NCBI GenBank assembly: GCA_030612585.1
Contig: JAUWNP010000087.1
Coordinates: forward strand, 1-17,531
DNA length: 17,531 nt
Direction of reading: 5' to 3'
Origin: Anaerolineae bacterium
GTDB taxonomy: Bacteria; Chloroflexota; Anaerolineae; B4-G1
The stretch's first letter is position 1. Each line of letters starts with the position of its first letter. Made by a program: the position numbers and the translations under genes. This document shows positions 2,723 through 17,531 of the stretch, piece after piece. The notes below the pieces were generated by a model. It was not told the origin of the DNA. It did not search any database and worked only from the letters and a program-made list of their open reading frames with translations.

Positions 2723-2797
2723 GGAAAAATCGAACGCATCGTGAAACGCCGGCGGCCGGCCGTGTTTGCCTCCTCAGCACGAGGCTCCAGGAACCAA

Positions 2798-2837
2798 AGA
2801 CCGCAGGGCTACCCTGATTAGGGTAGCCCTGCGGTCT
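2798..2837 (-). terminator. 18-bp stem hairpin just downstream of the initiator tRNA
   Basis: Bases 2798-2815 (agaccgcagggctaccct) pair perfectly with 2820-2837 around a GATT loop. It lies 5 bases beyond the tRNA-fMet 3' end on the minus strand. The transcript would continue TTGGTTCC after the stem, so the U-tract is weak. It may end tRNA transcription, guide 3' processing, or simply be a palindromic repeat. The stem itself is certain; the role is inferred. Confidence 0.6.
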
Positions 2838-2842
2838 GGAGG

Positions 2843-2914
2843 TAGCGGGGCCAGGATTCGAACCTGGGACCTCCGGGTTATGAGCCCGACGAGCTGCCTC
2901 TGCTCTACCCCGCA
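2843..2914 (-). tRNA. Initiator tRNA-fMet (CAT)
   Basis: The minus-strand 72 bases fold as a complete cloverleaf: acceptor TGCGGGG/CCCCGCT, D-arm GAGC/GCTC, anticodon loop CTCATAA, and T-arm CCAGG/CCTGG with loop TTCGAAT. Two hallmarks mark it as the initiator rather than the elongator: no Watson-Crick pair at 1-72 (here T1 opposite T72), and three consecutive G:C pairs closing the anticodon loop (GGG/CCC). The discriminator is A73. CC follows at 2842-2841, but the terminal A is not encoded. It has its own consensus promoter and a downstream hairpin. Confidence 0.95.
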
Positions 2915-2924
2915 ACGCGCGTGG

Positions 2925-2953
2925 ATTATACTACAATCTGCCGATTGCGTCAA
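2925..2953 (-). promoter_or_regulatory. Promoter of tRNA-fMet
   Basis: On the minus strand the -35 TTGACG (2953-2948) and the -10 TATAAT (2930-2925) are separated by exactly 17 bases. Transcription would begin a few bases upstream of the tRNA 5' end at 2914. The TGA of the -35 box is also the stop codon of the FtsB-like gene (2950-2952). Confidence 0.85.
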
Positions 2954-3354
2954 GGGCCGGCCGGGCCGAAGAGCGATTCCCGCAACTTGACCCAAAATGA
3001 CCGGGATTCGGGCACGGGAGTTGGTGTAGGCTGCGCGTCGCCGGCCAGTTCTTCACCGGCGCTTACGAGCGGCACGACGGCCACTTCTCCTGGCCTGGCC
3101 ATCTTCATCTCTGTCCGCGCCCAGTTTTCCACGTGCTCGTCAGACTTGACGTACTCTAACTGCGCGACCAGGTCGTCGTGATGGGCCTCTTCGTCCGCCA
3201 CTGCCTGCTCCAGCCGTTTCTCTTCTGCCCGCATCTGTCGCCCAAGCGACAGTTGTTGGCCGAACCCCCAGGCAATGCCTCCCACTATTGCGAGGGCAAT
3301 GACGACGGCAACACCAACGGCGAGTTGGTTGCGGTTGGGCTTGGGGAGTGTCAT
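2950..3354 (-). CDS. FtsB/DivIC-type septum formation initiator protein
   Basis: A 134-residue bitopic membrane protein of the FtsB/DivIC family, which bridges early and late divisome proteins. After a short basic N-terminus (MTLPKPNRNQ), residues about 11-30 form one membrane segment (LAVGVAVVIALAIVGG). A coiled-coil stretch (LGRQMRAEEKRLEQAVADEE) follows. Then comes the family's globular signature YVKSDEHVENWAR...RPGEVAVVPL and a Pro-rich tail. The frame is open further upstream, but the ATG at 3354 is preceded by AGGAGGT with 5-base spacing, so it is chosen. It has its own promoter at 3408-3436. Its stop codon lies inside the next promoter. No division-cluster neighbours are present. Confidence 0.85.
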   Translation of the reverse strand: MTLPKPNRNQLAVGVAVVIALAIVGGIAWGFGQQLSLGRQMRAEEKRLEQAVADEEAHHDDLVAQLEYVKSDEHVENWARTEMKMARPGEVAVVPLVSAGEELAGDAQPTPTPVPESRSFWVKLRESLFGPAGP

Positions 3355-3407
3355 ACGGCACCTCCTGGATGCAGTGACAAGGTCGGGATGCGGCGACAAC
3401 TGTTCCT

Positions 3408-3436
3408 ATAATACCCCGGTTCTTTCCTGACGTCAA
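3408..3436 (-). promoter_or_regulatory. Promoter of the FtsB-like gene
   Basis: Minus-strand TTGACG (3436-3431) and TATTAT (3413-3408) with a 17-base spacer. The expected transcript leader is about 50 bases before the ATG at 3354, with the AGGAGGT ribosome site near its end. Confidence 0.8.
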
Positions 3437-3465
3437 GTCCGGGCCGGCCGTTCCGGTGCCAGGAA

Positions 3466-3499
3466 ACAAAAATCCCGAGGCAGATGTTTGGCCTCGGGA
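3466..3499 (-). terminator. Intrinsic terminator of tRNA-Leu
   Basis: On the minus strand a 9-bp stem TCCCGAGGC/GCCTCGGGA (3499-3491 with 3481-3473), with a 9-base loop, is followed directly by TTTTTG. It starts 6 bases after the tRNA-Leu 3' end. This is a textbook rho-independent terminator. Confidence 0.9.
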
Positions 3500-3504
3500 A
3501 AAGG

Positions 3505-3589
3505 TGCCGAAGGTGGGAGTTGAACCCACATGGGCATAAAGCCCACTGCGCCCTGAACGCAGCGCGTCTGCCTGTTCCGCCACTTCGGC
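3505..3589 (-). tRNA. tRNA-Leu (CAG)
   Basis: The minus-strand sequence has acceptor GCCGAAG/CTTCGGC, anticodon stem-loop CTGCG-TTCAGGG-CGCAG with anticodon CAG, and a long class II variable arm (TGGGCTTTATGCCCA) typical of leucine tRNA. The T-arm is GTGGG-TTCAACT-CCCAC. The discriminator is A at 3505, with CC encoded at 3504-3503 and no terminal A. It has its own promoter and terminator, so it is an independent transcription unit. Confidence 0.95.
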
Positions 3590-3617
3590 TGGCGTGCTCC
3601 TCGCCGGAGCAAGGGCT

Positions 3618-3646
3618 ATTTTACAAGCAAACGGTCGTATTGTCAA
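3618..3646 (-). promoter_or_regulatory. Promoter of tRNA-Leu
   Basis: Minus-strand TTGACA (3646-3641, perfect consensus) and TAAAAT (3623-3618) with a 17-base spacer. The -35 box contains the TGA stop codon (3643-3645) of the solute-binding protein gene. Confidence 0.85.
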
Positions 3647-5322
3647 GGACGACGGCCGGCTTCCGACTCGCTTACGAAGACGCGGCGGTGCACAATCCAC
3701 CAGTCGGAGATGGTGCGGAAGCGGTCGGACGGGTGCATCAGAGGGCCAATCTGCACGTCGTTGATGTGCTCGTCTACGCCGTAGGTGTAAATCGGCACGT
3801 AGAGTAACAAGGCTGGCACTTCCTGGGCAAAGATTTCCTGAAACTCGTAGTATAACTCCCGACGCCTTTCGCGGTTGACGATGACCCGTGCCTGCTCGAC
3901 GACTTCGCTGGTGCGGCGATGAACGAACCCGGCGTAGTTCTGCCCGTCCTCGACCTGTGTTTCGTGCCAGAAGGGGTAGGGGTCCGGGTCGCCAGGCAGG
4001 GCTACGTCAACGAGAATCGCTTCGAAGTCGCGGTCCTCCAGTGCCTCGCGTACCTCCAGCGCTGAAGCGGTCTGGACTGTAACCGTGACTCCGATGGTCG
4101 TCCACTGCTCGGCTAGCATCTGTGCCACCCCTATTCTTTCTGGCTCACTCGATGTCAGCAGCGTGAATGCCAATGGCTGCCCAGCCTTACGTCGCACACC
4201 ATCTAGAACTGACCGGAACCATCCGGCTTCGTCCAAAAGCACGTTGGCTGTGTTGAGGTCCTGTTCGTAGTGGAGGATGTCATCCTTGTACGCCCAGGTG
4301 CCGGGGATCAAAGGGCTGTGGGCGACCAGCGCCTGGCCCTCCAGCACGCTGTCAATAATCTGCTGCCGGTCGAGTGCATATAGTAGAGCCTGTCGCACTT
4401 CCTGATCCTGGAAGAACGGTAGATCTGAACGTCCCAGGTTGAGGAATACGATGCCATATTTGGGGATCTGTGCAGAGAAGGGGTTGAGGCTGGGGAAGGC
4501 ACGTGCGCGCGGCAGATCTGCTGTCGTTATTTCGGCTATTCCCTGTATCTCCCCTGCCTCGTAGGCATTCAAGACATTCTGGTGACTCGGGTAGAAGCGG
4601 AATTGAACGCGGTCCAGGTGAGGGCGGGCCTCGTAGTAGTGGGGGAACTGTTCCAGCACTATGGCGGTGATTGCTCCGGCTTCGACCTCAATCTCCTCCA
4701 GTTGGAAAATGCCGCTCCCGACGGGGCTGAGGTTGAATTCCGCAGATGGCAGGTCGGCGGCACGAGTCCCGCCCAGCAAATGGGTGGGTAGGATGCCGAC
4801 TGTGGTGTAATCGAGGAACGGGGCATAAGACTCGGGCAGCGTGAAACGTACTGTATGGCGGTCAATCCTCTCGACTGTGACTGTCTGCCAGACGGCGGAG
4901 CCCAAATCGGGCGGACCGGGAAAGTCGGGGTCTTGTAGCAGCCTGATGGTGAAGATTACGTCGTCGGCGGTGAGAGGGGTACCATCGTGCCAGCGGGCGT
5001 TGGAGCGGAGGTAGAACGTGTAACTCAGGCCGTCGGGAGTGATGTCCCATCTGCGGGCCAGGTCGGGCTGCACTTCCCCGCGCTCATTCAGGCGCGTCAG
5101 GCCATTAAATACCAGAGCACAGATGTCACGGTCGGCGTCGTTGTACCCGCTCAACAGCGGATTCAGGTAGTGCGGGGAGCCGACGATGCCCTCGACGTAA
5201 GTCCCTCCACGGCCGGGGCGAAGCACGGTGGTATAATTGATGGCCAGGTAGGTCAGCAGGATGCTCACCAGCACGACGCCAAGGAGAATAAGAAGGATCT
5301 GCCAGCGGATATAACGGGCCAT
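3643..5322 (-). CDS. Peptide/nickel-type ABC transporter solute-binding protein (SBP family 5)
   Basis: A 559-residue extracytoplasmic substrate receptor of the SBP_bac_5 (DppA/OppA) family, which hands oligopeptides or similar ligands to an ABC permease. Residues 9-31 form one hydrophobic segment with no lipobox cysteine after it, suggesting an uncleaved membrane anchor or an atypical signal. Family marks include RGGTYVEGIVGSPHYLNPLL at the mature N-terminus, the WHDGTPLTADDV block (residues 111-122) and a C-terminal YEFQEIFAQEVPALLLY segment. GGAG lies about 10 bases before the ATG. No permease or ATPase genes adjoin, so the transporter partners must be elsewhere. It lies 142 bp downstream of secG on the same strand, with a terminator-like hairpin between. 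The ligand cannot be inferred. Confidence 0.9.
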   Translation of the reverse strand: MARYIRWQILLILLGVVLVSILLTYLAINYTTVLRPGRGGTYVEGIVGSPHYLNPLLSGYNDADRDICALVFNGLTRLNERGEVQPDLARRWDITPDGLSYTFYLRSNARWHDGTPLTADDVIFTIRLLQDPDFPGPPDLGSAVWQTVTVERIDRHTVRFTLPESYAPFLDYTTVGILPTHLLGGTRAADLPSAEFNLSPVGSGIFQLEEIEVEAGAITAIVLEQFPHYYEARPHLDRVQFRFYPSHQNVLNAYEAGEIQGIAEITTADLPRARAFPSLNPFSAQIPKYGIVFLNLGRSDLPFFQDQEVRQALLYALDRQQIIDSVLEGQALVAHSPLIPGTWAYKDDILHYEQDLNTANVLLDEAGWFRSVLDGVRRKAGQPLAFTLLTSSEPERIGVAQMLAEQWTTIGVTVTVQTASALEVREALEDRDFEAILVDVALPGDPDPYPFWHETQVEDGQNYAGFVHRRTSEVVEQARVIVNRERRRELYYEFQEIFAQEVPALLLYVPIYTYGVDEHINDVQIGPLMHPSDRFRTISDWWIVHRRVFVSESEAGRRP

Positions 5323-5339
5323 GCTGTATGGACTCCATT

Positions 5340-5386
5340 AAAAAGACACCGCCGTGAACAGGCGGTGCTAGTTTCTAACCTAGCAC
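5340..5386 (-). terminator. Terminator hairpin with an overlapping second hairpin, between secG and the SBP gene
   Basis: On the minus strand, CACCGCC/GGCGGTG (5367-5361 with 5353-5347, 7-base loop) is followed by TCTTTTT, an intrinsic terminator shape. A second stem GTGCTAG/CTAGCAC (5386-5380 with 5371-5365) lies just upstream and shares bases 5365-5367 with the first. The two cannot both be fully paired. It could simply end secG transcription, or act as an attenuator in front of the SBP gene, whose ATG is 18 bases away. Confidence 0.7.
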
Positions 5387-5464
5387 TGGCTCTTCATGTC
5401 GGTGCCTACTGTCTCGGGAGCGGAGTGCTTCTCAAAGCACCCTGCGCGTCACCGTGCCACACGG

Positions 5465-5689
5465 TTAGCCGATGACGATCACGTTGAGGAGGATGATGAC
5501 GAAAAACGCTACGGAAAGGCCGACCGTGATATTGAAGAGCGTGCGTTCCAGGCCCCGCCGCGTTTTGTGTATGGCGGTGTCTGTGCCGCCGAAGAGTCCT
5601 CCCATGCCACCGCCTTTGGTCTGCAGCAGAATAATGGCGGTCAACGCGACGCTGATGATGATTTGGGCAATGTTGAAGTAGATTTCCAT
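5465..5689 (-). CDS. secG: Preprotein translocase subunit SecG
   Basis: A 74-residue membrane protein of the SecYEG translocon. SecG supports SecA-driven protein export. Two membrane segments (about residues 4-23, ending in LLQ, and about 49-73) flank the conserved cytosolic glycine loop KGGGMGGLFGG. The start is set at MEIYF because GGAGG lies about 9 bases upstream of it; the frame extends 7 codons further but those lack a ribosome site. It has its own promoter (5716-5744) and is followed by several hairpins, including the terminator at 5340-5367. In many bacteria secG stands alone like this, so the context adds little. Confidence 0.92.
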   Translation of the reverse strand: MEIYFNIAQIIISVALTAIILLQTKGGGMGGLFGGTDTAIHKTRRGLERTLFNITVGLSVAFFVIILLNVIVIG

Positions 5690-5715
5690 TCTGATATTCC
5701 TCCAGGTCAAGACGC

Positions 5716-5744
5716 ATTATAGCATGCCATGGGGCTTCCGGCAA
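5716..5744 (-). promoter_or_regulatory. Promoter of secG
   Basis: Minus-strand TTGCCG (5744-5739) and TATAAT (5721-5716) are separated by 17 bases. The -10 is extended (TGC immediately before TATAAT). A GCAAGG/CCTTGC hairpin (5741-5757) overlaps the -35 side, between this promoter and the lipid-kinase stop codon. Confidence 0.8.
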
Positions 5745-5775
5745 GGTAGGGCCTTGCTCTTCTCAGCCCGGGCAT

Positions 5776-6735
5776 TCACGTCCGGACCACTTGCTCTCCC
5801 TGGGCAGTGGAGTCGAACAGGCTACGCGGGGCGCTGGGCGGCACGATGACTCTCAGCGCGCGAGGCACAACTTTCAGCGTGACCGGCGTGGTGCCGATGG
5901 GATCGCCGTCTACTTGCACCGGAATAGCCCACTCAGTCCATACCTCGATGCGGCGGGCTTGTCGGTGTACAACCTGGGGATCTCGCAGGTAACGGTGGCT
6001 GATGATTTTCAGCAAGTGGCGCACGGCGTACTGGAATCCCAATCCCTTGAAGACGAAGACGTCGAGCAGCCCGTCGTCCATGCGTGCCTCACGGGCAACG
6101 TTGAGTATGCCGATATACTGCTGGATGTTGCTCACCAGGATCAGTAGAGTACGGCCTCGCACGACGTTGCCATCGAGGGAGACGCGTGCCCGCACGCCTT
6201 GAAAATCGCGCGCGACCAGGACGGCGGCGATGGCATAGGGCAGCATGCCCAAGCGCTTGGTGCGCCGTTGGCGTGGTTCCATTGCGGCAGTCACCTGGGC
6301 GTCCAGTCCGATGCCAGCCCAGCACAGAAAACAACGGCCATTCACCTCCCCGACGTCAACCAGGTGGATGGACCCCTCGGCCAGCCCGTCTGCTGCCTCG
6401 TGCAGGCGCAGGGGGTTGGCCAGCGTGTAGGTGGGGATGCCCAATTGTTTGGCCCACAGGTTGCCCGTACCGACTGGCAGCACACCCAATGCTGTCTGGG
6501 TGCCCACTAGCCCATTGACCGCTTCATTGACGGTGCCGTCTCCCCCGGCTACGATCACCACGTCGCAGCCCGCCTGGGCTGCCGCGCGGGCCAGGGTGGT
6601 GGCATCGCCCGGTTTCTCGGTCAGTTGTAACTCAACCGACCATCCACGGCGTTTCAGGTGAGAGCGAACGCGCTTCAGGGCACGCCGAGCGTCCCGGGGA
6701 CCGGCGGTGGGATTGTAGATCATACGGGCCTTCAT
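5776..6735 (-). CDS. Diacylglycerol/lipid kinase (DagK/YegS family)
   Basis: A 319-residue soluble lipid kinase that phosphorylates diacylglycerol or a related lipid with ATP, recycling it to phosphatidate for membrane synthesis. The catalytic domain shows NPTAG (residues 8-12), the nucleotide-binding GGDGTVNEA (64-72) and PVGTGN (87-92). The C-terminal beta-domain contains DDGLLDVFVF and VQVDGDPIG, typical of the family. Length is normal for DagK/YegS. The ATG at 6735 is only 9 bases from a perfect TATAAT and has no Shine-Dalgarno sequence, so the mRNA is probably leaderless. It diverges from the PASTA kinase gene. Whether the substrate is diacylglycerol or another lipid cannot be read from the sequence. 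Confidence 0.92.
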   Translation of the reverse strand: MKARMIYNPTAGPRDARRALKRVRSHLKRRGWSVELQLTEKPGDATTLARAAAQAGCDVVIVAGGDGTVNEAVNGLVGTQTALGVLPVGTGNLWAKQLGIPTYTLANPLRLHEAADGLAEGSIHLVDVGEVNGRCFLCWAGIGLDAQVTAAMEPRQRRTKRLGMLPYAIAAVLVARDFQGVRARVSLDGNVVRGRTLLILVSNIQQYIGILNVAREARMDDGLLDVFVFKGLGFQYAVRHLLKIISHRYLRDPQVVHRQARRIEVWTEWAIPVQVDGDPIGTTPVTLKVVPRALRVIVPPSAPRSLFDSTAQGEQVVRT

Positions 6736-6744
6736 ACTGGCGGG

Positions 6745-6772
6745 ATTATAACACGCCTTTTCTCTTTGGCAA
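6745..6772 (-). promoter_or_regulatory. Promoter of the lipid kinase gene (leaderless)
   Basis: Minus-strand TTGCCA (6772-6767) and TATAAT (6750-6745) with a 16-base spacer. Only 9 bases separate the -10 box from the ATG at 6735, so transcription should start at or within a few bases of the start codon. Confidence 0.75.
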
Positions 6773-6775
6773 TCC

Positions 6776-6804
6776 TTGCCGACGGTGCTGATTTGGAGTA
6801 CAAT
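6776..6804 (+). promoter_or_regulatory. Promoter of the PASTA Ser/Thr kinase gene
   Basis: TTGCCG (6776-6781) and TACAAT (6799-6804) with a 17-base spacer. Its -35 box is 3 bases from the -35 box of the divergent lipid-kinase promoter, and together they form the inverted repeat GGCAA-TCC-TTGCC. The leader of about 60 bases contains a repeat tract. Confidence 0.7.
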
Positions 6805-6806
6805 AT

Positions 6807-6846
6807 TAGCAGTCAGCAGTTAGCGGTCGGTAGTTAGCAGTCAGCA
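6807..6846. repeat. Direct-repeat tract in the kinase 5' leader
   Basis: GCAGTCAGCA occurs at 6809-6818 and 6837-6846, and AGTTAGC at 6818-6824 and 6832-6838. The tract is built from shuffled copies of CAG(T)TAGC/CAGTCAGC words, a commonly seen interspersed repeat type. It lies between the promoter and the GGAG ribosome site (6861-6864). Confidence 0.65.
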
Positions 6847-6871
6847 ACTGACGGCTGGTTGGAGTCAAACA

Positions 6872-8788
6872 ATGGAACCCGTGTTGCTCAACAATCGGTA
6901 TCGCCTGCTGGAGTTGGTTGGTTCTGGCGGGATGGCAATTGTGTACAAGGGGGTGGATACACTGCTCCAACGCCGGGTGGCGGTGAAGGTGCTGCGCGAG
7001 GGGTTCGCCAGCGATCCGGCGTTCCTGGCTCGTTTCCAGCGGGAGGCTCGGGCCGCAGCCAACCTTGATCATCCTGGCATCGTCACGGTGTATGACGTGG
7101 GCCAGGATGACGACCGGCATTACATCGTGATGGAATACGTGGATGGTCAGGACCTGAAAACGCTGATCCGCCAGGAAGGCCGCTTAGGCATTGATGAAGC
7201 CCTGGACATAGCGATCCAGGTCTGTGCCGGTGTGGGGCATGCGCACAAGGCAGGCGTCATTCACTGCGACGTCAAGCCCCAGAACGTGCTGGTGACCCGA
7301 GATAGGCGGGCCAAGGTGACCGACTTCGGCATTGCGCGGGCGCTTTCCGAGGCAGGCCTCACCGAGTCGGAGACGGTGTGGGGCAGCCCCCTCTACTTCT
7401 CGCCTGAGCAGGCGGCAGGTGAACCACCATCCCCAGCGTCCGATGTCTACAGTATTGGCGTCATGATGTACGAGATGCTGGCCGGGTCGCCGCCCTTCCA
7501 GGCCGAAAAGCCCACTGCGCTGGCGCTGATGCACATGCGCGAGGAACCATCGCCCCTGGCAGTCCGCAATTCCCAGGTGCCGCCTCAACTGGAGTGGATC
7601 ATCCGCAAGGTGCTGGCCAAGGAGCCCTCAGCGCGCTACCGTACCGCCGACCAGTTGGGCCACGTCCTCGAAGAGTACCGCAGGCATGGAGAGCAGATGA
7701 CCGGGTGGCAACCTGCGACTGCGAGTCACTTGTCGTCCACACCACCTCCTGCGGGTTATGATGTCGAAGCCGAACCTCCTGCTGTGTCACGGCTGGCCCC
7801 TGATAGGCTGGCGTGGATACTGGGGGTAATAGCGTTCGTCGCTGTAGTGGGCCTCATCCCGCTGTGGTTGTGGGTCCGCCAATCCTGGTCTGTTTCGCCG
7901 TCCCTGCCGCCTGCTGCCACGTCTCAGCCTTTGGTCACTTTGACGCCGACGGTGAAGTTGATCCCGGTGCCCTCTGTGGTGGAGGAGGCAGTGGAAGATG
8001 CGCGGAGGGTGGTGGAGCAAGCAGGCTTGCGCTTCGTGCTGCTGGACGAGCGCTATGAACCAGGTGTTGAGAAGGGGATTGTGCTTGAACAGAGCCCGGC
8101 TCCCGATGTACTTGCCCCTCTCGACTCGGAAGTCTCCGTCGTCGTGAGTGGGCCGGGGCGGGGACTGACGATGCCGGGCGTGGTGGGTTACCAGATAGAG
8201 ACGGTGCAAGACGGTCTCGAGTCGGATGGCTTGCGGGTTATCAGCGACACGGTGTGGAGTGTGCAGGTGGTGGGGAGGGTGGTGGGACAGGAACCCGAAC
8301 CGGGAACAACGGTCCACGCTGGCGATACGGTGACGTTGACCGTGAGCGGGGGCGTAGACATAACTATTCCGCTCCAGGTCAACCTGGCTGATCGGATTAT
8401 GCTGGAGAGCGCTGAGTTGCGGCAGGAAACGTTTCGGCCGGGTGGGGTGGTCGCGGTCGCGTTGCGCTGGCAGGCGCTGTACTCCATTGATACACATTAC
8501 GTCGTGTTCGTGCACCTCATTGATCCCAACGCCAACTTCGAGGATAGCCTGATAGCGCAGCAGGACGTAGAGCCGGTCATCCCCACGGTGAGGTGGGTGC
8601 CGGGCGTGGAGGTCGTGGACCCGCATCAAATCACCATCCCAGCCGATCTGCCAGCAGGTTGGTACGAGTTGCGTGCCGGGATGTATACTCCGGGATCGTC
8701 TGGCTCCCGACTTCCGGTCGTGGACGCTGGCCTCACGACGGCGGAGTCGGACAGTATTCTGATCGCTGAGATTGAGATACAGCCTTGA
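6872..8788 (+). CDS. Membrane Ser/Thr protein kinase with PASTA repeats and a C-terminal beta-sandwich module
   Basis: A 638-residue PknB-like sensor kinase. The cytosolic kinase domain (about 9-270) has the glycine loop GSGGMAIVYK (17-26), Lys39, the helix-C Glu58, the catalytic loop HCDVKPQN (Asp133) and DFG (151-153), so it should be active. The residue before the catalytic Asp is Cys instead of Arg, i.e. a non-RD kinase. A linker leads to one membrane segment (about 313-335). Outside are two PASTA domains (about 370-432 and 434-500), which in the family bind muropeptides or lipid II. The last 130 residues form an unusual module (RPGGVVAVALRWQAL, YVVFVHLIDP, LPAGWYELRAGMYTP) resembling the C-terminal beta-sandwich of Chloroflexota glycosyltransferases. 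GGAG precedes the ATG by 7 bases. No partner phosphatase is nearby. Confidence 0.93.
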   Translation: MEPVLLNNRYRLLELVGSGGMAIVYKGVDTLLQRRVAVKVLREGFASDPAFLARFQREARAAANLDHPGIVTVYDVGQDDDRHYIVMEYVDGQDLKTLIRQEGRLGIDEALDIAIQVCAGVGHAHKAGVIHCDVKPQNVLVTRDRRAKVTDFGIARALSEAGLTESETVWGSPLYFSPEQAAGEPPSPASDVYSIGVMMYEMLAGSPPFQAEKPTALALMHMREEPSPLAVRNSQVPPQLEWIIRKVLAKEPSARYRTADQLGHVLEEYRRHGEQMTGWQPATASHLSSTPPPAGYDVEAEPPAVSRLAPDRLAWILGVIAFVAVVGLIPLWLWVRQSWSVSPSLPPAATSQPLVTLTPTVKLIPVPSVVEEAVEDARRVVEQAGLRFVLLDERYEPGVEKGIVLEQSPAPDVLAPLDSEVSVVVSGPGRGLTMPGVVGYQIETVQDGLESDGLRVISDTVWSVQVVGRVVGQEPEPGTTVHAGDTVTLTVSGGVDITIPLQVNLADRIMLESAELRQETFRPGGVVAVALRWQALYSIDTHYVVFVHLIDPNANFEDSLIAQQDVEPVIPTVRWVPGVEVVDPHQITIPADLPAGWYELRAGMYTPGSSGSRLPVVDAGLTTAESDSILIAEIEIQP

Positions 8789-8810
8789 GGTGGCGCATCC
8801 GGTGATCTCT

Positions 8811-8828
8811 GGTATAATGTGGTATAAT
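8811..8828 (+). promoter_or_regulatory. Tandem extended -10 promoters of ftsH
   Basis: Two perfect extended -10 boxes, TGGTATAAT, end at 8818 and 8828, exactly 10 bases (one helical turn) apart. No convincing -35 box lies at 17 bases for either; the nearest, TTGAGG at 8785-8790, overlaps the stop codon of the kinase gene at a 22-base spacing. Extended -10 promoters often work without a -35. The leader to the GTG at 8903 would be about 70 bases. Confidence 0.7.
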
Positions 8829-8902
8829 GGTCTTGGAAAATACAATAACAGACGAGGCACTCCGGTTTGTGATGGAGTCGCCTGGTTGAGCGGAGGCAAA
8901 TC

Positions 8903-10846
8903 GTGCGTTCTAAGTCAAGGGGAAGCCCGTTTATCTATTTGATTATCCTCGTCGCTGCTGCGTCTCTGGTGTACAGCGTCTACTCACAGCGAGGGCAGGA
9001 TGTACCTCGGAAGAAGTTCTCGGAGGTGGCTGCGTTGGTGCAGGAAGGGAAAGTCACCAGCATTCGCGTGGAGGGGGATAATCTGTTTGTTGGACTTGAG
9101 GGTGGCGAGGAGGTCGAGTCGTACAAGGAATCTGAGTCCACAGTCACAGCGCAATTACTGGACCTGGGGGTGACTGCGGAGGAGTTGCAGGGTGTTGTGA
9201 TTGATCCAGTGCAGCCACCTGATTGGATATCTCTGTTGAGCGCCGGCGGTTCGATCCTGCTGCTGGTGGTTATGCTGGTGGGAGGCTACATGATGGTGCG
9301 CCAGTTCCAGGGCGCGAACAGCCAGGCGCTCGCTTTTGGCAAGAGCCGCGCCCGGATGTACACCGGGGATCAGCCGTCGGTCACCTTCGACGATGTGGCG
9401 GGGGTGGACGAGGCCAAGGAGGAACTGCGCGAGGTGGTCGAGTTCCTCAAGGAGCCGGAAAAGTTCGTGCAACTGGGGGCGCGTATTCCCAAGGGCGTGC
9501 TGCTGGTGGGAGCGCCGGGCACGGGCAAGACCCTCATGGCCAAGGCAGTCAGCGGGGAGGCGGGGGTGTCCTTCTTCTCCATCTCCGGCTCCGAGTTCGT
9601 GGAGATGTTCGTCGGTGTGGGGGCGTCCCGGGTGCGTGATCTGTTCGAGCAGGCGAAGCGGCACAGTCCTTGCATCATCTTTCTGGATGAAATAGATGCT
9701 GTTGGCCGCCATCGGGGCGCTGGGTTGGGGGGTTCCCACGACGAGCGAGAGCAGACGCTGAACCAGATTCTGGTCGAGATGGACGGCTTCGACACCGACA
9801 CGAATGTGATCATTATGGCGGCTACCAACCGCCCGGATATTCTGGACCCTGCGTTGCTCCGCCCTGGTCGCTTCGATCGCCGCGTCGTGCTCGACAGGCC
9901 AGACATCAAGGGGCGCGAGGCGATTCTGAAGGTGCACGTGCGCGGCAAGCCGTTGGGTGAGGCCGTGGACCTGAGAACGTTGGCCAGGTCTACCCCGGGC
10001 TTCGTAGGGGCCGACATCGAAAATATGATCAACGAGGCGGCGATCCAGGCTGCCCGCGGCAACAAGAAGGTGATCGAGATGCCCGAGTTTGAGGAGGCGA
10101 TTGAGCGCGTGCTCGCCGGGCCGGAGCGCAAGAGTCGCTTGATATCTGAGGAGGAGAAACGCATCACGGCCTACCACGAGGCCGGGCATGCGGTGGTGGG
10201 CCACGTGCTTCCCAAGTGTGATCCGGTGCACAAGGTCTCCATTGTGGCGCGTGGGATGGTCTCTGGCTACACTATGGCTTTGCCAGAGGAGGATCGGCAC
10301 ATCGTGAGCAAGGCCAAGTTCAAGGATGACCTGGCATTCTCGCTGGGTGGGCGAACATCCGAGGAACTGGTATTTGGGGACGTGACAACGGGGGCGGCCA
10401 ATGACCTGGAGCGGGTGACGGAACTGGCGCGCGCTATGGTGACGCGCTACGGGATGAGCGATAAGTTGGGGCCGATGACCTTTGGTCAGAAAGATGAACT
10501 GATCTTCCTGGGCAAGGAGATAGGGGAGCAGCGAGACTACAGTGAGGCGGTTGCCCAGGAGATTGACGTCGAGGTGCGCAAGATCGTCCACGAGGCGCAC
10601 GAACGGGCCAGGGATGTCCTGACGCATCACCGAGAGCAGTTGGAGCGGATAGCGCAGCGGCTGATAGAGGTCGAGACGCTGGATGCCGATGAGTTCGTCG
10701 CTTTGTTCGAGGGCGTCCCCGAGAAAGAGCCAGAGGTCCCCGAGAGCCCGCCTCCTGTATCTGGCGTCGAGCGGCCGGCCGTGCGGCCGGTCCCCAAGCG
10801 GCGCCAGCCCACGCTGGACATGCCCCCCACGCCAGCCCCGGCGTGA
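8903..10846 (+). CDS. ftsH: ATP-dependent zinc metalloprotease FtsH
   Basis: A 647-residue membrane AAA+ protease that extracts and degrades misfolded membrane proteins and regulatory proteins as a hexamer. Two N-terminal membrane segments (about residues 9-27 and 113-131) flank a small extracytoplasmic domain. The AAA module has Walker A GAPGTGKT (203-210), Walker B FLDEID (260-265) and the second region of homology [20 protein letters not shown]. The M41 peptidase domain has HEAGH (425-429) and the third zinc ligand Asp501 in [13 protein letters not shown] Pro-rich tail ends the protein. The start is GTG, with GGAGG six bases upstream. It is transcribed from its own tandem -10 boxes and closed by a strong terminator. 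All catalytic residues are intact. Confidence 0.97.
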
Positions 10847-13150: not shown

Positions 13151-15619
13151 TTGAGTAAACGTAAACGTAAGAGACAGCGTCACGCGCCGCCTGCGCAGAG
13201 GTCGCGCCGACATCGCCAGGGGACGAACAAGTTGCAGGCGATTCTCAAACAGGCTGACAGCCTGATTGACCACGGTCGTACCCAGGAAGCCATCGCTCTC
13301 CTGGAGCCACTGTTGGCATCCTACCCGCGTGTGGCCGATCTGCACTACTACGTCGGTTACGCCCACGTCAAGGCTGGCGACATCTGGGGTGGGCTGGTAG
13401 GATACGAACGGGCGATGGAATTGGGCCGGGATCCAAGCCATTGGCTGCCATTGGCCTCGCTCTACCTGGAACTCGAGTTGAACGTGCATGCCCTGCGCGC
13501 TTTTCGCCAGGCGCTAAAGCGACAGGCCGACGTCCCGATGATTGACGAAGTGCGCGAGGCGGTAGCCTCGTTGGAGAAAGACATTCTGGAGACCGCACAT
13601 AATCTTGGTCTTCCAGTGGCACGAGTCGAAAAAGGCCTCCGTTACCTGGAGAACGGTCAGCGCGCACTGCATAAGAATGACTTTCCGGCCTGCGTCGGTG
13701 CCAGCCAGCGAGCCATCAAGTTGCTGGCCGATTGGCCCCCGCCTCGCAACAACCTTTCCCTGGCGCTGTTCTACGATGGTCAACCGGAAAAGGCCATTGC
13801 TACCGCACGCCAGGTGCTCTCGCAAGCCCCGGACAACGTTCAGGCGCTGAGTAATGCCATCTGTTTCCTGGCCTGGACGGGACAAGAGGCAGATGCGCGG
13901 GTGTTGTGGGCGCAGTTGAAGGAAATCCCACCACAGGGGAATAGCGATCGCCGCAAGATGGCGGAAGCGGCCGCCATCTTGAACGAAGACGAGAGTGTGT
14001 ATCACCTGCTACGTCCCTTGGCCAAATCGGAAGGGAGGCGGCAGGGAATGCCTGGATTATCCTGGCAGACACGGCTATTCCTGGCCGTCGCCGAAGCCAA
14101 TACCGGCCGTCGCGCCGCGCGACCCCATCTGAAGGCGTTGCGGAACGACCTGCCGTGGGCAGGCGAGTTGCTGGCGGCGCTGGAGGCCGGGCGACCGGGG
14201 CCGGGTTGGGCCGAGCGTTTCCCCTACTTCCACAGCACCGAACTCATGCCTATGCCAAGGATAGGCGAGTTCGTTGACCTGGTCGGCCGCGAGGATGAGA
14301 CGTCGCCCCGGAGATTTCGCAGCCAGGTGGCGCGCTTCGTCGCTCGTTTCCCCCAAATTGTCCTCATGGCAGAGAAGATGATCTGGGAAGACAACCAGCC
14401 CGACGCCGGGGTCGCGATTCTGGCGACCGTCGCCACTCCGGCTGCTTACGCTGCCCTGCGCCGCTTTGGGTTGAGCCAGGCCGGTGAAGACGAGGTGCGC
14501 ATGCAGGCGCTCATCAGTCTTATACAGGCGGGCGAGATCGCACAAGATGAAACGTTGCGCGTGTGGGGCGGAGGGGAGTGGCGGGAGGTGCAACTGCGCC
14601 AGCACGAGATTTCGGACGAGCCCAAGACGCAGTACAGGCCGGACGTGGCAAGACTGTTGGATCAAGGTTTGAGCGCTTTCCAGCAGGACGACTATGAAAA
14701 GGCCGAGCGGCTGTTCCGCCGCATGTTGGAATTGGAACCCCGCGCCAGAGAAGCGTGCAACAATCTCGGCACGATCCATGCCCGTCGCGGGGAGCACGCG
14801 CAAGCCAGGGAGATGTTCCAGGCGGCGCTGGAGATAGATCCGACCTACGTGTTTCCGCGCTGCAACCTGGCCGTGTATCTCCTGGACGAGGATGACGTCG
14901 AAGGGGCAGATGCCATGTTGCAGCCTTTGGCCAGCGCGACGCACTTTCGCCCGCAGGAGATGGCGTTCTACTCCTATACCCAGGCCCGCATTCTGATGCA
15001 GCGGGAGGAATACGAGGCGGCTCGCCGCGCTTTGCGGGCCGCGCTGCAGATATCGCCTGATTACAAGCCGGCCGAGAGCCTGCTGGAGCGCCTCGAAAGG
15101 ATCACCAGCATTGAGACGGGCTTCGAGTCCTTCATGGAGCAGCAGCGCAAGCGTGATCAGGCCAAACGCGACCGGCTACAGGCCAGACTCTCCACGCTGG
15201 AGCCGGCGCTCGCCGAGGCACTATCCATCTACACCAAGGACGTGCTCACCGGAATGGCGCGCGTGGTCGTGCGCTGGGGTGGATGGTCGGCACTGCGCAA
15301 GGCGGAGTTGATCGAACGGATAGCCACCGAACTCGGCGACCCGGACAATCTGGAACGAGTGGTTGGCGATCTGAACGAAGATGAACACTCTGCGCTGCGC
15401 CAGGTGCTGGCGCACGATGGGGCTATACCCTGGCAGGATTTCGACGCTACCTACGGAAACGACCTGGAGGAATCTCCATACTGGCAATGGCACGTGCCGG
15501 AGACGACTATGGGCCGCTTGCGGCTGCGCGGGCTGCTGGTGGAAACGACGGTAGATGGCGAACTGTTGGTCGCTGTGCCGTCTGAATTGCGGCATCTCCT
15601 GGGAGAGATGCTGAACTGA
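13151..15619 (+). CDS. TPR-repeat protein with SAP-like and winged-helix-like C-terminal regions
   Basis: An 822-residue cytosolic protein, with no signal peptide or membrane segment. The first 25 residues are very basic (KRKRKRQRH...RSRRHRQG), possibly nucleic-acid binding. TPR-like helical repeats occupy about 28-130, 150-260 and 500-640, e.g. YEKAERLFRRMLELEP and HAQAREMFQAALEIDP. After a charged coiled-coil linker (about 645-685), residues about 690-725 (YTKDVLTGMARVVVRWGGW...LRKAELIERIA) resemble a SAP/Rho-N helix-extension-helix. The last 85 residues (LNEDEHSALRQVLAHDGAIP...GRLRLRGLLVE...VAVPSELRHLL) look like a winged-helix unit as in XPB-type helicase N-domains. The start is TTG, with GGAGG six bases upstream; no better ATG exists nearby. 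No enzyme motif is visible. The function is unknown; scaffold or nucleic-acid-linked adaptor is an inference. Confidence 0.85.
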   Translation: MSKRKRKRQRHAPPAQRSRRHRQGTNKLQAILKQADSLIDHGRTQEAIALLEPLLASYPRVADLHYYVGYAHVKAGDIWGGLVGYERAMELGRDPSHWLPLASLYLELELNVHALRAFRQALKRQADVPMIDEVREAVASLEKDILETAHNLGLPVARVEKGLRYLENGQRALHKNDFPACVGASQRAIKLLADWPPPRNNLSLALFYDGQPEKAIATARQVLSQAPDNVQALSNAICFLAWTGQEADARVLWAQLKEIPPQGNSDRRKMAEAAAILNEDESVYHLLRPLAKSEGRRQGMPGLSWQTRLFLAVAEANTGRRAARPHLKALRNDLPWAGELLAALEAGRPGPGWAERFPYFHSTELMPMPRIGEFVDLVGREDETSPRRFRSQVARFVARFPQIVLMAEKMIWEDNQPDAGVAILATVATPAAYAALRRFGLSQAGEDEVRMQALISLIQAGEIAQDETLRVWGGGEWREVQLRQHEISDEPKTQYRPDVARLLDQGLSAFQQDDYEKAERLFRRMLELEPRAREACNNLGTIHARRGEHAQAREMFQAALEIDPTYVFPRCNLAVYLLDEDDVEGADAMLQPLASATHFRPQEMAFYSYTQARILMQREEYEAARRALRAALQISPDYKPAESLLERLERITSIETGFESFMEQQRKRDQAKRDRLQARLSTLEPALAEALSIYTKDVLTGMARVVVRWGGWSALRKAELIERIATELGDPDNLERVVGDLNEDEHSALRQVLAHDGAIPWQDFDATYGNDLEESPYWQWHVPETTMGRLRLRGLLVETTVDGELLVAVPSELRHLLGEMLN

Positions 15620-15624
15620 CAGCG

Positions 15625-15759
15625 ATGAACCATCCCATTCTGGACCAACCTGAAGTACTGCGAGTAAAGCGGTTGGTCCTGATCCCCGGTGCAGACCACA
15701 ACGACCTGATGATGGTCGGAATGTCACAGTACTTTGAAGCGATCCATCTGGTTAATTGA
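15625..15759 (+). pseudogene. Remnant of an alpha/beta-hydrolase C-terminus
   Basis: A 44-codon frame starting 5 bases after the TPR gene stop encodes LVLIPGADHNDLMMVG followed by SQYFEAIHLVN and a stop. The pattern LxxIPGAxHND...YFxAI is the end of bacterial alpha/beta-hydrolases, where the His is the catalytic histidine. No nucleophile elbow or upstream domain is present, so only the tail survives. The frame closes inside TAATTGAC, the left end of the repeat element that follows, and lacks the usual last residues. No ribosome site precedes the ATG. Translation of a free 44-residue peptide is unlikely. Confidence 0.6.
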
Positions 15760-15899
15760 CAAAACTCTGGTATCCTCAAGGTTGGCCGGAAATGGGACGC
15801 AGATCAACGCAGATGGACGCTGATTCTCTGGTTTTTATCTGCAAATGATCTGCGAAAATCTGCGTGAATCTGCGTCCTAGAGGATTTGTCAGTCAATTA
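15753..15899. repeat. 147-bp inverted-repeat element between the hydrolase remnant and acuC
   Basis: TAATTGAC (15753-15760) and GTCAATTA (15892-15899) are inverted ends. Inside, GGACGCAGAT (15795-15804) is complemented by ATCTGCGTCC (15868-15877), with further GCAGAT/ATCTGC copies between. Sequences built on ACGCAGAT...ATCTGCGT are frequent interspersed repeats in environmental bacterial genomes. The segment codes for nothing and accounts for most of the gap 15620-15927. Confidence 0.7.
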
Positions 15900-15916
15900 G
15901 GTCAGAGTGGTATAGG
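15886..15916 (+). promoter_or_regulatory. Possible acuC promoter
   Basis: TTGTCA (15886-15891) lies 19 bases before TATAGG (15911-15916), which has a TG extension (TGG immediately upstream). The spacing is long and the -10 imperfect. The -35 would be donated by the right end of the repeat element. Confidence 0.35.
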
Positions 15917-15927
15917 GAGACAAGACG

Positions 15928-17058
15928 ATGGAAGCCGCCTTCATCTGCACAAAGGAACTGTGGTCGCAGGGCTTCGGCGGGACGCACCCGTTGAAACCGG
16001 AACGGCTGAAGCGCACTTATGAACTACTCATGGCTTATCGAGCCTTCGACGCGCCCGGCTCGCACCTGGTGCCGCCACACCCGGCCAGCCGCGAGGAGTT
16101 GCTCCTGTTTCACACCGCGGAATACGTGGACGCCGTCGCCAGGATGAGTCGTGGAGAAGCACATCACCTGGCCAGACGATACAACTTCCGCCCCGACGAG
16201 ACCCCCGTCTTCCCCGGTATGTACGAAACTGAGGGTCTCAAGGTGGGAGCGGCTCTGACGGGGGCCAGGTTGATCGCCGAAGGGCAGACGCAAGTGGCCT
16301 TCAGCATTGCCGGGGGGATGCACCATGCGCGGCTTGCTTTGGCCTCCGGTTTTTGCATCTTCAACGATTGTGCGGTTGCCATCCATTGGTTGATGCGCCA
16401 GGGGCTGCGGGTGGCTTACGTAGACATTGATGTGCACCATGGCGATGGGGTCCAGGCCGCTTTCTACGACACCGATCAGGTGCTGACCATCTCATTGCAT
16501 CAGGCGGGCATCCGTTTTTATCCCGGCACTGGCTTCCCTGAAGAGATAGGGACCGGCGCTGGATATGGCTATAGCATCAACGTGCCTTTCCTGCCCTATA
16601 CCGACGACGAACTGTATCTGTGGGCCTTTCGCCAGGTGGTGCCACCGTTGGTCCGCCAGTTCGCCCCCGATGTGCTGGTGACCCAGGTGGGCGTGGACAC
16701 CCACTACCGCGATCCGCTGGCTATGCTGATGCTGACGACCCAGGGCTACGTCGCCTTGATCGAGGAACTCAAGACGTTGGCCGATACCATCGGGCGCTGG
16801 CTGGCCTTCGGCGGCGGGGGATACGCCGTGGACGTGGTGCCGCGCGCCTGGACGCTGGCCTATGGTCTGATGTCGGGGCAGACCTTCCCGGATGAACTCC
16901 CACCTGCATACAGCGAACGCTACGGCCCCGGCCGATTGCACGACACCGCAGGCCCGGAGCCGGCGGAAGCGTGGGTGATTGAGCAGACTCGCGAGTACGT
17001 CGAAAAAAGCATCGCTGCCCTCAAGGGCCAGACACAAGATGTGTGGCGATGGGAGTAG
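15928..17058 (+). CDS. acuC: AcuC-type histone-deacetylase-family protein (class I-like lysine deacetylase)
   Basis: A 376-residue zinc-dependent amidohydrolase of the HDAC/AcuC fold. In Bacillus, AcuC removes acetyl groups from acetyl-CoA synthetase and so switches it on. The active site is complete: the tandem histidines HH (132-133) in AGGMHHARLA, the charge-relay and zinc motif DIDVHHGDG (D166-G174) with zinc ligands D168 and H170, third ligand D257 in VGVDTHYRDPL, and the transition-state tyrosine Y299 in GGGGYAVD. Length is typical. GGGAG lies 8 bases before the ATG. No acetoin genes adjoin; the nearest possible substrate enzyme is the acyl-CoA ligase 3 kb away, transcribed on the opposite strand. 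Polyamine- or small-amide-deacetylase activity is an alternative in this superfamily. Confidence 0.92.
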   Translation: MEAAFICTKELWSQGFGGTHPLKPERLKRTYELLMAYRAFDAPGSHLVPPHPASREELLLFHTAEYVDAVARMSRGEAHHLARRYNFRPDETPVFPGMYETEGLKVGAALTGARLIAEGQTQVAFSIAGGMHHARLALASGFCIFNDCAVAIHWLMRQGLRVAYVDIDVHHGDGVQAAFYDTDQVLTISLHQAGIRFYPGTGFPEEIGTGAGYGYSINVPFLPYTDDELYLWAFRQVVPPLVRQFAPDVLVTQVGVDTHYRDPLAMLMLTTQGYVALIEELKTLADTIGRWLAFGGGGYAVDVVPRAWTLAYGLMSGQTFPDELPPAYSERYGPGRLHDTAGPEPAEAWVIEQTREYVEKSIAALKGQTQDVWRWE

Positions 17059-17075
17059 AATCTAGGTAATCGTTC

Positions 17076-17173
17076 AGACCTCCGAGGTTTTGACCGCATA
17101 TTTGGCCTGGAAAGTGAGCAATATGTCGTTACAATCTTCCAGGAGAGCGCTATTTGGCAAACCTCGGAGGTCT
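17076..17173. repeat. 98-bp element with perfect 15-bp inverted ends
   Basis: AGACCTCCGAGGTTT (17076-17090) and its exact complement (17159-17173) bound 68 bases that contain a nested CCTGGAA/TTCCAGG pair. TTT follows the right end, so a transcript coming from acuC would form a hairpin plus short U-run, and it may work as its terminator. No coding capacity is seen in 17059-17235. The ends read like a widespread interspersed palindrome. Confidence 0.75.
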
Positions 17174-17235
17174 TTTGCTGGCATTTTATCACCTCCCTGA
17201 ACGCTTGCGAATCTAGATCTGACCGATGTTCCTAT

Positions 17236-17264
17236 TTGTCATCCCTGTCACCCCGGCGTATAAT
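17236..17264 (+). promoter_or_regulatory. Strong promoter of the Trypco1 gene
   Basis: TTGTCA (17236-17241) and TATAAT (17259-17264) are separated by exactly 17 bases; 11 of 12 consensus positions match. The leader to the ATG at 17316 is about 45 bases. Confidence 0.85.
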
Positions 17265-17287
17265 CTACGTGAAATGGACTTGGCAAA

Positions 17288-17302
17288 ACGAATGTCATTC
17301 GT
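17288..17302. repeat. 15-bp palindrome in the Trypco1 leader
   Basis: ACGAATG and CATTCGT are perfect inverted copies around a single T. The site lies about 17-31 bases downstream of the expected transcription start and directly before the ribosome site GAGGTGA. Its symmetry and place suit a dimeric repressor operator or an RNA hairpin limiting translation; both are inferences. Confidence 0.6.
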
Positions 17303-17315
17303 GAGGTGAGACATT

Positions 17316-17531
17316 ATGGCGACCTATATTGAGTATGAACTAGAAGACGGCACCACAGTACTGATCGAAAGCAGCGAGCCGGGAAGCGGAGTGGTCAGAG
17401 CCAGCCGTGACAAGGAAGGAAACGTGATCAAGAAGGCCGGCCAAAAGTTCGAGGCCGCTCTCGCGGGGATCAAACCATGGGCGGCTGCCTTACGCCGGCA
17501 ACTGGACGATCTTCTGGCCGATGAAATCGAG
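17316..17531 (+). CDS. Trypsin-co-occurring domain 1 (Trypco1, CU044_2847-type) protein, cut by window end
   Basis: The first 72 residues of a gene that continues past the window. It begins MATYIEYELEDGTTVLIE, followed by SGVVRASRDKEG, KKAGQKFEAALAGIKPWA and LRRQLDDLL. This is the pattern of the small Trypco1 family: a beta-hairpin start with GTTVLVE, a GVVRA strand, and an amphipathic helix with F-EAL--IKP. In published comparative work such proteins sit beside trypsin-like serine proteases in NTP-dependent conflict (defence-like) systems. The ATG has GAGGTGA about 7 bases upstream, and the gene has a strong promoter of its own. The partner genes are not visible. Confidence 0.75.
   Translation, partial: MATYIEYELEDGTTVLIESSEPGSGVVRASRDKEGNVIKKAGQKFEAALAGIKPWAAALRRQLDDLLADEIE

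Follow-up and report, generated by a model that had tools for sequence, protein, structure and literature searches.

Introduction

Trypco1 (trypsin-co-occurring domain 1; PF19493) was named after its occurrence next to trypsin-like peptidases in VMAP-MoxR-vWA systems, according to the portions of the source paper at hand (PMC7159879), and is termed an adapter domain in the accessible portions of a second paper (PMC10907252). There, STAND NTPase systems with protease effectors are described together with EADs and DGR-diversified CLec domains. These two papers were the only ones in the literature searched that mention Trypco1, and CU044_2847 was not found in that search.

The window analysed here, a stretch of 17,531 nt from an Anaerolineae bacterium (contig JAUWNP010000087.1), breaks off inside a gene that the original prediction took to begin like Trypco1 and to mark the edge of a possible Trypco1/trypsin conflict system. 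We characterized this gene and its surroundings and surveyed the neighbourhoods of its relatives in other genomes.

Results

The last ORF of the window starts with an ATG at 17316 on the plus strand, and the contig stops 216 nt into the gene with the frame still open, leaving a 5′ part of 72 codons without a stop (17316–17531). As predicted, the gene starts like Trypco1: in a profile test of its protein, the 72-aa fragment scored 37.5 bits against Pfam PF19493.4, above the cut-off of 24.6 even though a third of the domain is absent, with residues 8–72 aligning to profile positions 2–66 of 98 before the contig ends. The score against NCBIfam NF041216 (CU044_2847 family), obtained on the truncated 72 aa, was 18.3 bits and below its cut-off of 23. 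Database proteins matching the fragment at E ≤ 1e-3 numbered 38; P0001 to P0011 are near-identical copies (11 proteins; 96–99% identity over 72 aa) with full lengths of 107–108 aa. A Trypco1 profile search returned 1,112 proteins at E ≤ 1e-5, and when all six frames of the window were scanned with our own profile, the gene at 17316–17531 was the sole match (71.0 bits). The window's last ORF is a genuine Trypco1 gene and an ordinary member of a known family. Its protein had no sequence relative among PDB chains at E ≤ 0.1, and structure prediction with fold searches gave neither a confident fold match nor a mechanistic hint. Viral contigs yielded nothing, either in an exact search with the last 35 bases of the window or in a search for relatives.

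The Trypco1 start codon is preceded by a ribosome-binding-like GAGGTGA read from the sequence (17303–17309, plus strand; 6 nt before the ATG) and by a sigma-70-type promoter-like site, TTGTCA-N17-TATAAT (17236–17264, plus strand), which matches 11 of 12 consensus bases. This is the best of three promoter-like sites in 15600–17531 (shuffle mean 0.8), and 200 shuffles contain no copy of the exact pattern, which the window has once. Hexamer pairs of 11/12 quality, any of which appeared in only 1 of 20 shuffles, number six across the whole window, the Trypco1 site among them. This indicates that promoters close to consensus are frequent in this DNA rather than a peculiarity of the Trypco1 gene. 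The near-perfect promoter of the original prediction is thus real as a pattern, but as one of six such pairs it is nothing unusual. Judged by its sequence, the site likely marks the start of transcription. A 15-bp palindrome lying between the two signals, ACGAATGTCATTCGT (17288–17302), was considered as an operator and given no weight, because 7+1+7 palindromes of this kind occur five times in the window.

Upstream of the promoter lies a 98-bp inverted-repeat element, AGACCTCCGAGGTTT..AAACCTCGGAGGTCT (17076–17173), whose 15-bp arms are 100% complementary and enclose 68 nt, followed by TTT; its predicted fold reaches −40.9 kcal/mol. It sits between the stop of the preceding gene (17058) and the Trypco1 promoter, and a promoter match downstream of a hairpin element is the pattern expected if the window's Trypco1 were the first gene of an operon. 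To follow its dispersal, we searched for the same ends spaced 55–85 nt apart, with the reversed pattern as control. Copies of 95–101 bp were found in three genomes (10 in G389, 15 in G055 and 1 in G094) and none in the 11 other genomes searched; the reversed pattern also gave none. Across 21 aligned copies, including that of the window, the interior is variable, the arms agreeing by construction of the search, and the flanks often show a GTAAGCGTTC-like stretch on the 5′ side and usually T bases on the 3′ side. The element is therefore a dispersed one, and no connection with Trypco1 is evident. Possible readings are a miniature mobile element and a hairpin strong enough to terminate transcription of the gene before it.

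That upstream gene (15928–17058, plus strand) belongs to the histone-deacetylase family (PF00850, 296.6 bits). Its nearest relative found, at 82% identity, lies in G389, a genome of 2.1 Mb, perhaps incomplete, in which no Trypco1 was found. G389 came from a draw of the class to which an Anaerolineales genome belongs, and on this resemblance the window was placed, as probable, in the Anaerolineae. The gene 3′ of the HDAC-type gene is not the same across the 12 listed relatives, and when the stretches at hand from those 12 loci were scanned with the profile, no Trypco1 appeared at E ≤ 0.01, so that a functional HDAC-Trypco1 pair was rejected and we do not judge the HDAC-type gene to be part of the Trypco1 system. 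At the nearest HDAC-type relative (L053, 3–1128), which is without Trypco1 there, the HDAC-type gene is followed by short minus-strand ORFs that resemble a toxin-antitoxin-type pair, and a gene of unknown kind.

Among the ten main window genes scanned by Pfam, no trypsin, STAND, vWA or VMAP family was reported, and a VMAP, vWA and MoxR set was likewise absent from these ten. The only AAA_5 signal among them was a weak overlap on FtsH (8903–10846), which scores as M41 FtsH and was dismissed as a conflict-system component. PADLOC gave no match for the Trypco1 and HDAC-type proteins and one weak TPR match for the window's TPR protein. Rfam, run over the whole window, found two tRNAs on the minus strand and nothing else, tRNA-Met (CAT; 2841–2914) and tRNA-Leu (CAG; 3503–3589). 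The helicase ORF contains two features (250–290 and 1480–1515), one a CCTTCGACAGGCTCAGG stretch and the other a CCCCCCCGAAACGGGGGG palindrome, that look like small in-frame repeat insertions; repeats like these are presumably dispersed.

Trypco1 is sparsely distributed among relatives of the organism. It was detected in 1 of 24 genomes of the G389 family (E ≤ 1e-6; 46% identity), in 25 of 396 genomes of the class Anaerolineae (E ≤ 1e-10) and in 8 of 400 of the phylum (E ≤ 1e-12), the class and phylum draws overlapping in part. Together with the varied genes after the HDAC-type gene, these sparse counts mark Trypco1 as a patchy accessory gene here.

As the window ends within the gene, we turned to 29 genomes picked for carrying Trypco1, 28 of them through the class search or Chloroflexota-titled loci and one through a Blastocatellia locus. 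Trypco1, Trypsin_2 and CHAT were located in all 29, genes within 5 kb were counted as neighbours, and the expectation was taken from the genomes' own densities. At least 18 of 46 Trypco1 genes had a Trypsin_2 neighbour compared with about 0.65 expected, a lower bound resting on the best 150 of 167 Trypsin_2 matches; a nineteenth case beyond these 18 (G215:C84, locus L087) was identified by Pfam. The trypsin gene was downstream on the same strand in 11 of the at least 18 linked cases, upstream on the same strand in 4 and on the opposite strand in 3, and in 10 of the 11 downstream pairs only 83–378 bp separate the domain hits.

Of the ten trypsin neighbours examined with Pfam, 8 carry nSTAND1, NB-ARC, NACHT, AAA_35 or AAA_22. 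The neighbour is a protein with nSTAND1 at L006, with nSTAND1 and WD40 at L066 and L071 (for L071 the Trypsin_2 assignment comes from the genome search and is not among its 25 listed Pfam rows), with nSTAND1 and FGE (FGE-sulfatase) at L069, with NACHT and FGE (FGE-sulfatase) at L007, with NB-ARC at L067, with TIR and AAA_35 at L072, and with AAA_22, TPR and EAD7 at L087; those at L077 and L091 have only TPR besides trypsin. In the aligned trypsin domains, the positions reading as the triad H, D and S are invariant in 9 of 9, so that, on sequence, these proteases look active. Overall, relatives of the window gene are strongly linked to trypsin-like proteases, which, where scanned, mostly carry a fused NTPase domain of STAND or other type.

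The neighbourhoods closest to the window gene are mixed. In the tree, P0002 and P0018 accompany it within a starred clade of 17 rows (98/88), in which trypsin occurs at L066 and L067, CHAT at L001, and neither at L002, L065, L070 and L073; the window itself and nine database proteins whose context could not be read make up the other ten rows. As the tree has only 111 columns and many unresolved forks, it was not used to infer a partner. Of the five genome relatives nearest to it, one adjoins a trypsin-STAND gene, one (L001) a receiver-CHAT gene, and the remaining three (L002, L065 and L003) have neither Trypsin_2 nor CHAT within 5 kb, two of these, L003 and L065, lying on contigs of only 3.5 and 3.0 kb. 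A separate Trypco1 clade comprises L089, L092, L099, L105 and L109, mostly with a YIETxTKDG-like start; at four of these loci (L089, L099, L105 and L109) a 555–605-codon gene and a gene of about 150 codons lie near Trypco1. Pfam gave no match for the 555- and 152-aa proteins of L089 or the 604-aa protein of L105.

L001 is the nearest genome locus found to the window's Trypco1 (63% identity). On one strand (2732–10345) it encodes a GAF histidine kinase, receiver-like genes (called by eye from their starts), a receiver-CHAT gene and Trypco1, the receiver-CHAT gene stopping 4 nt before Trypco1. CHAT genes also adjoin Trypco1 at L010, where CHAT-SIR2 lies downstream, and in G013, where CHAT is codirectional and just upstream; in all, 3 of 46 Trypco1 genes have CHAT within 5 kb compared with 0.40 expected. 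The receiver-CHAT protein of L001 matched 20 times across 17 of 396 genomes; besides L001 itself, four of these matches are near full length (one in G282, two in G384 and a second in G001). Trypco1 was absent from the fetched stretches at these four loci and, within about 1.5 kb on each side, from the other matched loci, so that receiver-CHAT was discarded as the usual Trypco1 partner. As the clade is mixed and the CHAT link did not recur at the related receiver-CHAT loci covered, the partner of the window gene cannot be inferred with confidence.

Discussion

The prediction of a conflict-system edge stands in part: the Trypco1 profile cut-off is exceeded and relatives are linked to trypsin far beyond expectation, but the nearest relatives include protease-free (3 of 5) and CHAT-linked (1 of 5) loci as well. 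Our preferred reading, to which we give somewhat less than an even chance, is that the window gene is a stand-alone, accessory Trypco1 with its own promoter-like site and a trypsin-STAND gene within 5 kb. On this reading, such a partner would follow in this organism, and the most likely role of Trypco1, as we infer it, would be in defence, as a small, non-enzymatic adaptor or regulator that binds the partner protease. As in many relatives, the partner would join a trypsin-like domain to a STAND-type NTPase and a sensor region of WD40, TPR or FGE type. Trypco1 might hold the protease silent, or pass on activation once the sensor meets an invader; the STAND switch would then turn the protease on, and the activated protease would cut cellular or effector proteins.

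A serious possibility, although we lean against it, is that Trypco1 stands alone in this clade and acts in trans on trypsin-STAND proteins elsewhere or on another regulator. L002 and L065 (59–61% identity; sister rows) have no adjoining protease, Trypsin_2 proteins are encoded somewhere in all 29 genomes, and 25 of the 46 Trypco1 genes are without Trypsin_2 and CHAT within 5 kb among the matches listed (18 trypsin, 3 CHAT). However, part of these 25 sit on short contigs that truncate the neighbourhood, one is the G215:C84 gene with the Pfam-identified trypsin neighbour, and at G057:C137 an nSTAND1-WD40 gene follows directly downstream (L082). That Trypco1 was found in the survey with CHAT or alone suggests its role may exceed what its name implies. 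It could be a general protease adaptor not bound to trypsin, moving in this clade among trypsin-STAND proteins, histidine-kinase-controlled receiver-CHAT proteins and free copies acting in trans, with the window gene one such mobile adaptor that has a promoter of its own, a view we regard as rather unlikely.

It is more improbable still that the window gene itself works with a caspase-like CHAT protein in place of trypsin, perhaps regulated by a two-component system like that of L001. The histidine kinase/receiver-CHAT row of L001, the CHAT genes at L010 and in G013 and their excess over expectation speak for such a partner, but the link concerns just 3 of 46 genes and was not seen in the stretches fetched for the four other long receiver-CHAT matches. 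Very little probability attaches to a remnant, that is, a Trypco1 gene decaying after its system was lost. Although a related copy in G001 (L008/L052) holds two in-frame TGA codons, the window ORF is open to the contig end and lies behind a promoter match and a ribosome-binding-like sequence, and the 96–99% identical copies retain the full frame of 107–108 aa.

If the window gene heads a trypsin-STAND operon, as our preferred reading allows, it would add, from the Chloroflexota, a case of a predicted immune switch built on a protease, with Trypco1 as a small partner that has no PDB relative by sequence at the threshold used here.

Compared with the described Trypco1 domain (PF19493; PMC7159879, as far as the available portions of that paper go), the window gene is alike in passing the curated Pfam score and in having relatives that adjoin trypsin-like peptidases. 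It differs in that the window covers only profile positions 2–66 of 98 with no trypsin visible, and in that the trypsin partners of the scanned relatives are mostly fused to STAND-type NTPases. With the VMAP-MoxR-vWA ternary conflict system and its Trypco-trypsin pairing it shares the Trypco1 component; in contrast to that system, the ten window genes scanned gave neither a VMAP nor a vWA family, and the proteases adjoining Trypco1 in relatives bear nSTAND1, NB-ARC or NACHT modules. Set against the STAND-protease systems in the accessible portions of PMC10907252, the window differs in showing no partner within its bounds, whereas the linked proteins of its relatives are alike in joining Trypsin_2 and a STAND-type NTPase with FGE-sulfatase (L007 and L069), WD40 or TPR and, in one case (L087), in carrying EAD7.
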